A stretch of DNA of 64,000 nt from Ralstonia sp. UNC404CL21Col. Its GTDB lineage: Bacteria > Pseudomonadota > Gammaproteobacteria > Burkholderiales > Burkholderiaceae. This document shows, in pieces, positions 24,855 through 45,259 of this stretch. Where the stretch lies: NCBI RefSeq assembly GCF_000620465.1, contig NZ_JIBE01000003.1, positions 930,001-994,000 of the forward strand. The letters are read 5' to 3'. Within the stretch, counting starts at the first letter, position 1. Each line of letters begins with the position of its first letter. The position numbers were made by a program, and so were the translations under genes. The notes under the pieces were generated by a model, which was not told the DNA's origin, did no database searches, and worked only from the letters and a program-made list of their open reading frames with translations.

Positions 24855-25283
24855 TTAGATTTCCAGCGCTTTCGGCTGCTGAGCTTCGTGCGGATGCGAG
24901 CCTTCGGCGTAAACCTTCAGCTTCTTGATCATCGCGTAGCCCAGCGGACCCTTCGGCAGCATGCCCTTCACAGCCTTCTCCAGGGCGCGGCCCGGGAAAC
25001 GCTGCTGCATCTTGCCAAACGTCGTTTCGTAGATACCGCCCGGGTAACCCGAGTGGCGATAGTACTTCTTGTCGGTCGTCTTGGCGCCCGTCACACGCAG
25101 CTTGGCTGCGTTGATAACGATGATGAAATCGCCGGTATCGACGTGCGGAGTGAATTCGGGCTTGTGCTTGCCGCGCAGTCGGTGTGCCACTTCGCTGGCG
25201 ACACGCCCGAGGACCTTGTCCGTCGCGTCAATCACGTACCAATCGCGCTTCACCTCATGGGGCTTTGCGGAAAAGGTCTTCAT
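24855..25283 (-). CDS. rplM: 50S ribosomal protein L13 (uL13)
   Basis: A 142-residue large-subunit protein, first gene of the rplM-rpsI operon. Typical signatures are [27 protein letters not shown] and [19 protein letters not shown]. It is preceded by an unusually long leader of about 190 nt with several hairpins. In E. coli L13 represses its own operon by binding its mRNA; whether this leader does the same job is unknown. Confidence 0.98.
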
Positions 25284-25385: not shown

Positions 25386-25471
25386 ACCTCATGCGAGGTC
25401 ATCGCCGGCCCGCCTTCCCGCTTGTTGGTGCGGGCTCTCTGGATTTCTTTTCCGCGGGCAATCCGGAAAAG
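25386..25471 (-). ncRNA. Structured 5' leader of rplM-rpsI mRNA
   Basis: Between the proposed start point (about 25471) and the rplM start, three inverted repeats can be drawn. CTTTTCCG/CGGAAAAG (25447-25454 with 25464-25471) is right at the 5' end. GCCCGC/GCGGGC is at 25408-25413 with 25430-25435. ACCTC/GAGGT is at 25386-25390 with 25395-25399. This is consistent with a ribosomal-protein autoregulatory leader, but no known L13-leader motif was recognised. Confidence 0.45.
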
Positions 25472-25477
25472 ATTTCG

Positions 25478-25507
25478 ATTGTACCCCGCAGAGACCCCTT
25501 GACACAA
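25478..25507 (-). promoter_or_regulatory. rplM-rpsI promoter
   Basis: Minus-strand -35 TTGTGT (25502-25507) and -10 TACAAT (25478-25483) are separated by 18 bp, about 200 bp upstream of rplM. It sits just downstream of the small-RNA terminator, as expected for an independent transcription unit. Confidence 0.6.
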
Positions 25508-25535
25508 GAAAAATGGCGCGCCTGAGGCCACGGGG

Positions 25536-25649
25536 CGAAAAAAAACCCAAGCCATCAAGCTTGGGTTTGAATCCACCAAAGGAGGAGGGTGGAGGAGACA
25601 CCTGCTGATCGTTGACTTGGTGGGTTGCACCGCATCAGCCGATCCAATG
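25536..25649 (-). ncRNA. Candidate small RNA with 16S-like anti-Shine-Dalgarno loop
   Basis: An orphan transcription unit of about 115 nt between the rplM promoter and the osmC-family gene, with its own -35/-10 and Rho-independent terminator. In the RNA a 7-bp stem CCACCAA/UUGGUGG (complement of 25617-25623 and 25573-25579) encloses a 37-nt loop. The loop holds CUCCUCC (25591-25597) and a second CCUCCUCC (25581-25588); the latter runs into CCUCCUUU (25578-25585), identical to the anti-Shine-Dalgarno tail of 16S rRNA. No open reading frame with a ribosome site fits inside. Such a loop would be expected to pair with purine-rich ribosome sites of mRNAs, as CU-rich bacterial sRNAs do. No named family was recognised. 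Confidence 0.6.
25543..25568 (-). terminator. Intrinsic terminator of the candidate small RNA
   Basis: AAACCCAAGC (25543-25552) and GCTTGGGTTT (25559-25568) form a 10-bp perfect stem with a 6-nt loop. On the minus strand it is followed by a run of eight T (complement of 25538-25545). It is oriented away from any annotated upstream gene, so it belongs to the small RNA. Confidence 0.85.
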
Positions 25650-25655
25650 GTGCAA

Positions 25656-25683
25656 ATTATACCCAGTTCTGGGGCACGCGCAA
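25656..25683 (-). promoter_or_regulatory. Promoter of the candidate small RNA
   Basis: On the minus strand TTGCGC (25678-25683) and a consensus TATAAT (25656-25661) are 16 bp apart. An inverted repeat TTGCACC/GGTGCAA (25649-25655 with 25625-25631) overlaps the start point and might be an operator. A 19-bp palindrome lies just upstream at 25696-25714. Confidence 0.6.
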
Positions 25684-25695
25684 GGGAATTTGCAC

Positions 25696-25714
25696 TACGA
25701 AATCGCATTTCGTA
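25696..25714. promoter_or_regulatory. 19-bp palindrome upstream of small-RNA promoter
   Basis: TACGAAAT, CGC, ATTTCGTA is a perfect 8+3+8 inverted repeat, 12 bp upstream of the small-RNA -35 box and about 270 bp before the osmC-family gene. It has no T-run, so an operator for an activator or repressor is more likely than a terminator. The rest of 25715-25930 is AT-rich with no gene; CAGATC/GATCTG (25784-25799) is the only other repeat seen. Confidence 0.4.
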
Positions 25715-25931
25715 ATGCGGAATATGAATCGCATGACCGATAAGCGGATATTTTCATTTAAAATCAATACCTTGCGAAAAATTCAGATCCACCGATCTGG
25801 TGCGCGCTAGAGACATCCCTCGAATTCTCGCGCGATTTGGGTGCAGAAAAGGCGGGTTGCACCTTTTCACGCGGGTATCACTGTCAAGCCGCGTTCACCC
25901 TAGGATGGCAACGCGGGCGCGGGCCGGTGGC

Positions 25932-26430: not shown

Positions 26431-26433
26431 GAA

Positions 26434-26775
26434 GCGAAGCGGACCGATAAGCCGGATTCTGTGCGCCGCGTGGCCGAAACCAGCGGCGTGACAACCATTC
26501 CTCTAGACCGGCTGTTGCCAGCCGGCTCAAGCTCCCTACCCGCAGACTCAGCGAGCCGCTTCATCGCCTGCTTACTTGGGATTGCTCCGGGTGGAGGTTA
26601 CCGCGTTTCACCCTTCGCCCTGGCCGAAGCCTGGGCGAAGACTCGTCTCTGTGGCCCTATTCCGCACGTCACCGTGGATGGTCGTTAGCCATCACCCTGC
26701 TCTATGGAGTCCGGACTTTCCTCCCCTTCCGCTCGCACGAGGCGGCGGAAGCAGCGGTTGTCTGGTCCGCTTCGC
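26434..26775 (-). ncRNA. rnpB: RNase P RNA, class A
   Basis: The catalytic RNA of RNase P, which trims tRNA 5' leaders. The P1 helix is formed by GAAGCGGACC at the 5' end (near 26773) and GGTCCGCTTC at the 3' end (near 26436). Universally conserved blocks read on the minus strand as GGGGAGGAAAGTCCGGACTCC, GGGTGATGGCTAACG, AACCTCCACCCGGAGCAA and GAATCCGGCTTATCGG. Length about 340 nt is normal. The promoter must lie within the 3' end of the DUF3025 gene: TAGACT at about 26785-26790 is at -10 position. Confidence 0.95.
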
Positions 26776-42778: not shown

Positions 42779-45259
42779 TTAGTTGCGCACCGGCTTGCCG
42801 GTCTGCAGCATGCCCATGATGCGTTCCTGGGTCTTGGAGCTGCCGAGCAGATCCACGAAGGCCTTGCGCTCCAGCGCCAGCAGCCATTCTTCGTCCACCA
42901 GCGCACCCGCTTCGACATCACCGCCGCACACGGTTTCTGCAATGCGCGAGGCGATCGTGAAGTCGTGCTGCGAGATGAACCCGCCGTCACGCATGTTCAC
43001 CAGCGACGCCTTGATCGTGGCGATGCCCGAACGGCCCGCCACCGGAATGCCCACCGGGCGCAGCGGCGCGCGATAGCCCGAATCGGACAGCGCACGCACT
43101 TCGTTGCGTGCAACGTGCAGCAGCTCATGCACGTTGAAGACAATGGTGTCGGTCGGTTGCAGGTAGCCGATCTTCTGCGCGTCCAGCGCGGAAGAGGACA
43201 CCTTGGCCATGGCCGCCGCCTGGAAACGGTTGGTCAGGAACTGCAGGATGTTCGTGCTGCCGGCTGCCTGCGCAGCCTTGGCTGCCGCCAGAGCCGCCTC
43301 CTTCAGGCCACCACCTGCCGGCACGAGGCCCACGCCCACTTCCACCAGGCCGATGTACGTTTCCAGCGCAGCCACACGCTTGGCCGAGTGCAGCAGCAGC
43401 TCGCAGCCGCCGCCCAGTGCGATGCCCGATGCGGCGGACACAACCGGCACGCCGGCGTACTTCACGCGCATCATGCCGTCCTGGAACTTCTTGACGAACG
43501 GCTCGATGCCCTTGGCGCCCCCCATCATGAAGGCCGGCATGGCTTCTTCCAGGTTTGCACCGGCCGAGAACGGACCACCCGGTGCGCCCAGCTTGAGCGA
43601 CGTCGGCTGCCACACCACCAGACCCTTGTAGCCGGCTTCCGCCAGATCAACCGCGCGCGTCAGACCGTCGATGACGCTCGGTCCGATCGTGTTCATCTTG
43701 CTCTTGAACGAGACGATCAGCACGTCGTCCTGGCCGGCCGCGTCGTCCACCCAGATGCGCACAGCGTCGGTCTCTTCGATCGTCTTGCCATACGTGAGCG
43801 GGTTCACCGCGGTCGCACCCTTGATCGGTGCACGGAACACCTGGCGGCCGTACACCGGCAGCGTGCTGCGTTGCAGGAACGTGCCCTGCTTGGCCGACCA
43901 CGAACCCTGTGCCGAATGCACACCGCCGTTGTCTGCGACCGGACCGGAGAACACCCACTGCGGCAGGGCTGTGTTCGACAGCGCCTTGCCGGCTTCGATG
44001 TCCTCCTTCACCCACTCGGCCACCTGCTTCCAACCGGCCTCTTGCCAGTCTTCGAACGGGCCGCTGTTCCAGCCGAAGCCCCAGCGGATCGCCAGATCGA
44101 CTTCCGCAGCCGAATCGGCAATCTGCTCCAGGTACACCGCGATGTAATGGAACACATCGCGGAACACAGCCCACAGGAATTGCGCCTGCGGGTTGGTCGA
44201 TTCGCGCAGCAGCTTCAGACGCTCGGCCGGCTCCTTCTTCAGGATGCGCACAACGATGTCGTCGGCCTTCTTGCCGCTCGGGCCGTACTGGCCGCTTTGC
44301 GGATCCAGCACCTTGATTTCCTTGCCTTCCTTCTTGTAGAAACCGGCGCCAGTCTTCTGGCCCAGGGCGCCCGCCTCCACCAGCTTGGCCAGCACGGGCG
44401 GCGTGGCGTAGACCGGCGCGAACGGATCGTCCTTCAGGTTGTCCTGCATCGTCTTGATGACGTGCGCCATCGTGTCCAGGCCCACCACGTCCGCCGTGCG
44501 GAACGTCGCCGACTTGGCGCGGCCCAGCTTCGAGCCCGTCAGATCATCCACCACGTCAAACGGAATGCCGTACTTGGCCGACTCCGCAAACACCGCCAGG
44601 ATCGAGAAGATGCCGACGCGGTTGGCGATGAAGTTGGGCGTGTCCTTCGCGCGCACGACGCCCTTGCCGAGTGCGGAGGTGAGGAACGTTTCCAGCTTGT
44701 CGAGAATGTCGCCGCGTGTGTGGGCAGTCGGGATCAGCTCGACCAGGTGCATGTAGCGCGGCGGGTTGAAGAAGTGCACGCCGCAGAAGCGCGACTTCAG
44801 CTCGGCGTCAAAACCGTCCGACAGTTCGGTGATCGACAGACCCGACGTGTTCGACGCGAAGATCGCGTGCGCAGCAATGTGCGGCGCGACCTTCTTGTAC
44901 AGATCGTGCTTCCAGTCCATGCGCTCGGCAATCGCTTCGATGACGAGATCGCAGTCGCGCAGCTTCTCGATGTCGTCTTCGTAGTTCGCAGCCTGGATGA
45001 GGTTCGCGTCATCCTTGATGCCGAGCGGTGCCGGCGACAGCTTCTTCAGGTTTTCGATGGCCTTGAGCGCGATGCCGCTCTTCGGGCCTTCCTTGGCAGG
45101 CAGGTCGAATAGCGTGACAGGAACCTTGGCGTTGATCAGGTGCGCGGCAATCTGCGCACCCATCACGCCGGCGCCCAGCACTGCAACGCGCCGGACGAGG
45201 AAGTTGGAACGCTGGCCGGCCTGCGGCTGCGCGCTGGTGGGGAGTTCAGTGCGGGTCAT
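42779..45259 (-). CDS. fadN: FadN-type bifunctional 3-hydroxyacyl-CoA dehydrogenase/enoyl-CoA hydratase
   Basis: An 826-residue beta-oxidation enzyme. The NAD-binding domain comes first (AVLGAGVMGAQIAAHLINA, about 26-44; IFASNTSGLSITEL; catalytic FCGVHFFNPPRYMHLVELI). The crotonase domain is at the C-terminal side (FSAGANLEEAMPAF and SGIALGGGCELLLHSAKR, about 560-640). This order is the reverse of E. coli FadB and matches Bacillus FadN (YusL). The gene sits between fadE-like and fadA genes, the same set as Bacillus fadNAE. The start at 45259 (MTRTELPTSA) is used; an upstream codon at 45301 lies in the intergenic hairpins. Confidence 0.9.
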   Translation of the reverse strand: MTRTELPTSAQPQAGQRSNFLVRRVAVLGAGVMGAQIAAHLINAKVPVTLFDLPAKEGPKSGIALKAIENLKKLSPAPLGIKDDANLIQAANYEDDIEKLRDCDLVIEAIAERMDWKHDLYKKVAPHIAAHAIFASNTSGLSITELSDGFDAELKSRFCGVHFFNPPRYMHLVELIPTAHTRGDILDKLETFLTSALGKGVVRAKDTPNFIANRVGIFSILAVFAESAKYGIPFDVVDDLTGSKLGRAKSATFRTADVVGLDTMAHVIKTMQDNLKDDPFAPVYATPPVLAKLVEAGALGQKTGAGFYKKEGKEIKVLDPQSGQYGPSGKKADDIVVRILKKEPAERLKLLRESTNPQAQFLWAVFRDVFHYIAVYLEQIADSAAEVDLAIRWGFGWNSGPFEDWQEAGWKQVAEWVKEDIEAGKALSNTALPQWVFSGPVADNGGVHSAQGSWSAKQGTFLQRSTLPVYGRQVFRAPIKGATAVNPLTYGKTIEETDAVRIWVDDAAGQDDVLIVSFKSKMNTIGPSVIDGLTRAVDLAEAGYKGLVVWQPTSLKLGAPGGPFSAGANLEEAMPAFMMGGAKGIEPFVKKFQDGMMRVKYAGVPVVSAASGIALGGGCELLLHSAKRVAALETYIGLVEVGVGLVPAGGGLKEAALAAAKAAQAAGSTNILQFLTNRFQAAAMAKVSSSALDAQKIGYLQPTDTIVFNVHELLHVARNEVRALSDSGYRAPLRPVGIPVAGRSGIATIKASLVNMRDGGFISQHDFTIASRIAETVCGGDVEAGALVDEEWLLALERKAFVDLLGSSKTQERIMGMLQTGKPVRN

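Follow-up and report, generated by a model that had tools for sequence, protein, structure and literature searches.

An operator-like PhaR core upstream of RF02278 small RNAs points to a possible link between PHB storage and silencing of catabolic and uptake genes

Four RNAs of B. cenocepacia (ncS03, ncS05, ncS27, and ncS62) have been described as the "double-hairpin RNAs" of Rfam family RF02278 (PMC5688073, PMC4603805). Overexpression of ncS27 is reported to slow growth whereas its silencing speeds growth, and 55–80% of the predicted interactions of the B. cenocepacia RF02278 RNAs fall near gene starts (PMC5688073). According to the same paper glucose medium induces ncS03 8.0-fold, ncS05 6.9-fold, and ncS27 4.3-fold, and the three RNAs are also induced in biofilms (2.9- to 9.7-fold) and upon starvation (2.6- to 3.9-fold). 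According to a review, ncS27 also has effects on carbohydrate transport and on the catabolism of phenylalanine and tyrosine (PMC10987360). An upstream motif shared by three of the B. cenocepacia copies was reported (Fig. S3 of PMC5688073), and Sass 2017 stated that the regulator of accumulation of these RNAs was unknown (PMC5688073).

Three further systems are close to the locus analyzed here. As described in PMC11722255, S17 of Bordetella pertussis resembles RF02278 in having a 5' Site 1 plus a Site 2 that are conserved across Betaproteobacteria, and counts many transporters and metabolic genes among its candidate targets, most of the contacts being at the ribosome-binding site (RBS). Unlike the sRNA studied here, S17 is cut from a longer RNA and lies beside coq7 rather than rplM, and it is reported as non-toxic to exponentially growing E. 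coli. The NmsRA and NmsRB RNAs of Neisseria likewise carry two anti-Shine-Dalgarno (anti-SD) stretches and down-regulate TCA-cycle genes; they form a tandem pair and are described as RelA-dependent (PMC5362039, PMC9973317). MmgR of Sinorhizobium (RF00519) is a PHB-linked trans-acting sRNA of the Alphaproteobacteria reported to act on phasins, and gel shift assays showed binding of its promoter by PhaR/AniA, which represses MmgR (PMC8401924, PMC12542648).

The window (the whole stretch of 64,000 nucleotides of Ralstonia sp. UNC404CL21Col DNA analyzed here) encodes an RNA that is a member of RF02278 ("Betaproteobacteria toxic sRNA", curated cut-off 50 bits), a family already known. The match covers the full model and the copy has all three family elements, the 5' UGUCUCCUCC, the hairpin with a CU-rich loop, and the terminator hairpin (Table 1). 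The preliminary description had implied that the sRNA was new, and this part is withdrawn given its family membership and the four copies described in B. cenocepacia. The window RNA and the B. cenocepacia RNAs are alike in having two hairpins and CU-rich unpaired stretches, although the predicted length is about 114 nt here versus 92 nt for the B. cenocepacia double-hairpin RNA. Moreover, ncS27 can be processed to a short form like the RF02278 core of the window (PMC5688073). By published description ncS27 adjoins BCAL3348a and BCAL3349 (PMC5688073, PMC4603805), and BCAL3348 is listed with the ribosomal-protein genes (PMC5688073); on that description of genomic position, the window copy is probably the counterpart of ncS27 by virtue of its place upstream of rplM. 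In the Rfam comparisons the window RNA also gave a full-length match to NmsRb (RF02877) of 30.4 bits, below the cut-off of 52, and matches to RF02877 of 41.3 and 39.6 bits were obtained at two other rplM-linked loci. These weak full-length matches, together with the report that mutation of relA raises NmsR levels (PMC5362039), would fit a true orthologue of the Neisseria NmsRs that answers to the stringent response rather than to carbon storage. We consider this orthology unlikely: all RF02877 matches lie below the curated cut-off, and structural similarity to the NmsRs had already been noted by Sass 2017 (PMC5688073). RF00519 (MmgR) gave no match within positions 25400-25800 at E values up to 1.

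Table 1 Coordinates of the features of the RF02278 unit of the window and of the RF02278-like phasin tails in other loci.
Feature	Position	Strand	Basis or remark
rplM (L13), downstream neighbor	24855..25283	-	PF00572 match, ORF
Promoter-like site for rplM	25478..25505	-	9/12 consensus matches; past sRNA terminator
sRNA, about 114 nt	25537..25650	-	predicted from promoter and terminator sequence
RF02278 core	25537..25600	-	full-model match, 71.3 bits, E 2.2e-12 for window
Intrinsic terminator stem-loop, 11 pairs	25543..25568	-	T-run runs on to 25537
Hairpin 1, UCCACC / loop CUCCUCCUUU / GGUGGA	25572..25593	-	MFE and centroid fold
Exposed 5' site UGUCUCCUCC	25591..25600	-	unpaired in predicted fold
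5' hairpin domain	25598..25653	-	predicted fold; genus only
PhaR core TGCACCGCATCA	25626..25637	+	just past predicted sRNA start
-10 hexamer TATAAT	25656..25661	-	16 bp from -35
-35 hexamer TTGCGC	25678..25683	-	read in sequence
Dyad ACGAAAT-N3-ATTTCGT	25697..25713	.	upstream of -35
RF02278-like phasin tail	L130:1152-1216	-	GTCTCCTC
RF02278-like phasin tail	L133:1065-1141	-	GTCTCCTC
RF02278-like phasin tail	L135:2050-2130	+	GTCTCCTC
RF02278-like phasin tail	L158:1905-1983	+	GTCTCCTC
RF02278-like phasin tails	L375 and L376		downstream of phasin

The family is widespread. A covariance search across the order gave RF02278 matches at E ≤0.001 in 188 of 300 order genomes (114 above the cut-off), and the corresponding figure for the taxonomic family was 137 of 150 (133 above the cut-off); none of the 14 controls gave a match at that E value. 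Many genomes have multiple copies (up to nine matches per genome), and a second copy is found on the same contig as that of the window; its 3-kb locus shares 91.6% identity with a Ralstonia pickettii H2Cu5 record, which agrees with the window being from Ralstonia. Among 30 rplM loci sampled across the order, nine have RF02278 directly upstream and on the strand of rplM, and three of the nine (L037, L061, and L054) score below the cut-off at 35.8 to 41.0 bits. An RF02278 match is present somewhere in 16 of these 30 genomes, and seven of the 16 have no match beside rplM; in two of the seven (G154 and G169) the matches elsewhere are all weak. The rplM neighborhood of RF02278 recurs across many families, and the place beside a ribosomal-protein operon noted at the outset is therefore not peculiar to the window.

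By sequence the window sRNA is a free-standing unit with its own promoter and terminator, as first described. The TTGCGC and TATAAT hexamers, 16 bp apart in the window, are conserved in the genus; the -10 is identical in all nine same-genus loci and the -35 is TTGCGC in eight and TTGCGT in one. Note that this promoter was missed by a promoter scan, whose sole match was the site on the rplM side. The start was inferred about 6 nt past the -10 box and the end was taken as the T-run, giving a predicted length that agrees with the earlier figure of about 115 nt, and the terminator with its T-run is likewise present. The 120 nt fold has a predicted energy of -47 kcal/mol with a z-score of -4.3, and none of 200 shuffles was equally stable. 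The RF02278 E value, the fold z-score, and the promoter conservation together put the unit beyond chance. It sits between rplM and a divergent ORF (ATG at about 25984). An ordinary class A RNase P RNA (250.7 bits) lies at 26432-26773 on the minus strand. Upstream of the -35 box is a dyad, ACGAAAT-N3-ATTTCGT, whose arms are conserved and whose center varies in the nine same-genus loci, which suggests an additional regulator at the window copy.

The location invites the reading that the sRNA serves the rplM-rpsI operon as leader or attenuator and exerts cis control by premature termination. Its same-strand position upstream of rplM in the nine loci above and in a set of 43 loci selected as linked would fit such a role, but a separate promoter-like site for rplM lies past the sRNA terminator, and the spacing between the TCTCC start and the inferred L13 start ranges from 133 to 491 nt. 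Moreover, seven of the 16 family-bearing genomes lack a match at that place and a genome can have up to nine RF02278 matches. Given chiefly the separate rplM promoter-like site and the seven genomes, attenuation has only a slim chance of being correct, and we treat the RNA as an independent sRNA.

Read 5' to 3', the predicted fold opens with a long 5' hairpin, which is followed by an unpaired CU-rich stretch, hairpin 1, and the terminator. The 5' hairpin domain is confined to the genus, its sequence not being kept in the other loci of the 43-locus rplM-linked set. Hairpin 1 has a 6-bp stem and in the predicted fold its 10-nt loop, CUCCUCCUUU, displays a second anti-SD site. Its pairing holds in 96.9% of alignment cells, and the fold, this pairing, and the Rfam model together argue for the structure. 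Evidence from compensatory changes is thin. Four of the six pairs are invariant across the aligned sequences and only a single pair changes on both sides (C-G in 21 sequences, U-G in 18, and U-A in 9). The paired cells and both-side-change cells were exceeded by just 5 of 500 shuffles, whereas the number of both-side-change pairs (111/500) and the covariation score (218/500) were not above shuffles, and a slide of +3 gave a higher covariation score. The preliminary description had instead drawn a 37-nt loop on a CCACCAA/UUGGUGG stem. That structure can be drawn, but its energy of -36.1 kcal/mol falls 4.7 kcal/mol short of the best fold (-40.8 kcal/mol), and its CCACCAA 5' arm occurs in only 8 of the 43 rplM-linked relatives, all eight in the genus of the window; it was rejected.

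The CU-rich anti-SD motifs reported earlier (CUCCUCC, CCUCCUCC, and CCUCCUUU) are all present in the window sRNA. The 16S rRNA tail ends CACCUCCUUU..., and the preliminary description had read the RNA chiefly as a mimic of that tail, with the CCUCCUUU loop able to act on ribosomes generally by competing for Shine-Dalgarno sequences or for 30S factors. CCUCCUUU is found in all nine same-genus copies and in 28 of the 43 rplM-linked copies, and the family name "toxic" derives from growth inhibition in E. coli as cited in PMC4603805 and PMC5688073. However, CCUCCUUU is missing from the other 15 of the 43 copies, and the best-conserved stretch is GUCUCCUCCA, which all 55 aligned relatives share unchanged (the alignment comprised 55 of 157 core sequences, the 157 including shortened duplicates). 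When compared with the tail given above, GUCUCCUCCA extends away from it, and its predicted pairing with GGAGGAGACA is -19.4 kcal/mol versus -9.2 kcal/mol with AAGGAGGU. Mimicry also sits poorly with the effect of ncS27 on growth of B. cenocepacia with some substrates and not others (review PMC10987360) and with the report that S17 left exponential growth of E. coli unimpaired and had no more than a modest effect on entry into stationary phase (PMC11722255). We set aside 16S mimicry as very unlikely because the best-kept stretch runs away from the tail. The likeliest reading is that the RNA pairs with mRNAs for catabolism and transport at their Shine-Dalgarno regions. Hence, the earlier idea of SD-directed regulation by exposed CU-rich stretches complementary to RBSs was right in kind, whereas its structure and its emphasis on 16S rRNA were wrong.

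Putative targets were sought among gene starts of the genome. The genome has 16 instances of GAGGAGACA before ATG, a pattern complementary to the 5' site, versus one of the reversed pattern and six of a permuted pattern. Twelve of the 16 genes were classed by us from Pfam matches as catabolic or transport versus 7 of 20 random strong-SD genes drawn from 400 kb (Fisher p 0.02), a small and post-hoc comparison in which classes were assigned after the matches had been seen and the E-value limits were 1e-5 for targets and 1e-8 for controls. The enzymes are two AMP-binding enzymes, an acyl-CoA dehydrogenase, an enoyl-CoA hydratase, a catechol dioxygenase, a PQQ dehydrogenase, a 2Fe-2S subunit, an SDR dehydrogenase, and a zinc dehydrogenase, and the transport genes are those of two periplasmic binding proteins and a Xan_ur permease. 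These predicted target classes agree with the published targets of the relatives. The loop-type site AAGGAGGAG precedes ATG eight times in the genome, and Pfam scans of the five of these genes having long ORFs gave a TctC receptor and a branched-chain permease as transport genes. In 464 kb of the same genome (135 starts), GGAG followed by ACA before the start codon was 4.4-fold enriched and GGAG followed by ACC was 4.2-fold enriched; as the two triplets behaved alike, this comparison was not counted toward the targets.

The promoter regions of the family share a motif that overlaps the -35 box in many RF02278 copies. TGCRNYGCANCA occurs upstream of RF02278 in 53 of 100 distinct loci versus 0.1 expected from shuffles, and a looser form occurs in 75 of 100 versus 0.9 expected. 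PhaR is a PHB-granule-sensing repressor that is released by granules, and its published palindrome in Ralstonia eutropha is YTKNTGCRNYGCANMAR (PMC12849132), the core of which is the same as the RF02278 promoter motif. PhaR presence was scored by a PF07879 search and 116 of 142 genomes were positive. The core TGCRNYGCANMA was found within 200 nt upstream of RF02278 in 94 of 112 PhaR-positive genomes (shuffled rate 0.25%) and in none of 25 PhaR-negative genomes. Five genomes lacking a recognized sRNA were left out (L116, L126, L165, L166, and L199; four PhaR-positive and one PhaR-negative), although L116 nonetheless shows a core upstream, and a two-locus genome was scored positive when either locus had the core. 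Within the four taxonomic families that contain both PhaR states the counts were 57 of 68 PhaR-positive versus 0 of 8 PhaR-negative genomes. The Fisher p value of the association is 4e-16, a figure that ignores relatedness and comes from a sample consisting largely of high-scoring RF02278 loci. In 16 of the 25 PhaR-negative promoters TTGCA is kept in the 100 nt upstream, and thus what is absent is the palindrome and not the -35-like part. Counted in the PhaR-negative promoters alone, TATTAGNNNAT stands at the -10 position in 20 of 25 and a TTAG-N6-CTAA dyad in 12 of 25 (L121, L129, L160-L163, L195, and others have such promoters); these elements are perhaps another operator.

The classical targets of PhaR are phasin genes. 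Of 48 complete phasin loci, 45 have the core upstream, and TGCRNYGCANCA was found upstream of phasin in 25 of 27 loci versus 16 of 1555 background stretches. The motif could belong to some other regulator that shares the PhaR core by chance, given that its support is computational and that 18 of the 112 PhaR-positive genomes lack a perfect core. We regard such a coincidence as quite unlikely in view of the identity of the core with the published PhaR site, its occurrence at the phasin loci, and its absence in 25 of 25 PhaR-negative genomes. Its presence in the promoter region and absence where PhaR is absent suggest that RF02278, as a family, probably belongs to the PhaR regulon, and we infer binding of PhaR to the core. 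No report of a link between PhaR and RF02278 was found in the open-licence papers searched. PhaR is unmentioned in the main text of PMC5688073, PMC7377471, PMC10987360, PMC11722255, and PMC7011215, and in PMC4603805 "PhaR" matches 'Pharmaceutical' alone.

The genome of the window encodes PhaR plus two phasins. Its sister RF02278 copy has the TGCAACGCAGCA core over the -35 box, and PhaR control of that copy is likely. The core at the window copy, TGCACCGCATCA, is one letter off the MmgR site core, TGCACCGCAGCA, and is one of two core sites within the 64 kb. A perfect core is kept in seven of the nine same-genus loci. The window site differs from the 17-mer at two positions and appears to be a weak site; sites of this quality number 19 in the 64 kb. 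Operation of the PhaR-gated mechanism at the window's own copy would thus be extrapolated from the family. The second perfect core of the window, TGCAACGCAGCA at 43864-43875 on the minus strand, lies inside an 840-aa ORF that by eye resembles 3-hydroxyacyl-CoA dehydrogenase, and may be a chance occurrence.

Phasin genes also showed RF02278-like sequences at their 3' sides. GTCTCCTC was found within 160 nt past the phasin stop codon in 6 of 48 complete loci versus 96 of 20000 background stretches. Two of these six tails are from one genus. A hairpin comes after GTCTCCTC in each tail, and five of the six also have a T-run inside the 160 nt. When 20 phasin loci were scanned with Rfam, four of the GTCTCCTC tails gave weak RF02278 matches, all below the cut-off, and a sequence directly past the phasin gene at L131:2025-2101 on the plus strand gave a weak RF00519 (MmgR) match of 33.1 bits (cut-off 41). 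The GTCTCCTC loci possibly encode phasin 3'UTR sRNAs, and it looks as if the same output has been wired into phasin mRNAs, which we offer as a lead rather than a result.

We consider it likely that RF02278 sRNAs are, at the family level, gated by PhaR and act on RBSs to silence genes for catabolism and uptake. In the absence of PHB, PhaR would occupy the RF02278 promoter. Upon carbon surplus, PHB granules would titrate PhaR and the sRNA would be made. Its UGUCUCCUCC (the 5' end of the core) and CUCCUCCUUU (the hairpin loop) would then pair with the RBSs of mRNAs encoding catabolic enzymes and uptake proteins and block their translation, turning down uptake and breakdown of further carbon sources. 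The growth attenuation, RBS targeting, glucose induction, and granule release of PhaR drawn upon here come from published accounts of the relatives and would apply by analogy. Two reports run against the scheme. A pure carbon-surplus model does not predict that the B. cenocepacia copies also rise in starvation (PMC5688073), and S17, which has much the same sites, left exponential growth of E. coli unimpaired (PMC11722255). For the Betaproteobacteria as a whole we propose, with moderate confidence, that PHB-titrated PhaR frees RF02278 (and in some lineages phasin tails) to silence catabolic and uptake RBSs, and that loss of PhaR drops the operator and not the sRNA. Such a circuit would parallel the PhaR-MmgR circuit of Alphaproteobacteria.

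Taken alone the window RNA is ordinary, being one more copy of a known family at a place where that family recurs. RF02278 is found widely, often in several copies per genome, and slowed growth is the phenotype known for it. It is the PhaR-type operator rather than the identity of the sRNA that goes beyond the known family. A 2021 review describes riboregulation in PHB synthesis of Cupriavidus necator as undeciphered (PMC8401924). If true, a PhaR operator on RF02278 promoters would join the question of what regulates these sRNAs with that of the riboregulation of PHB.
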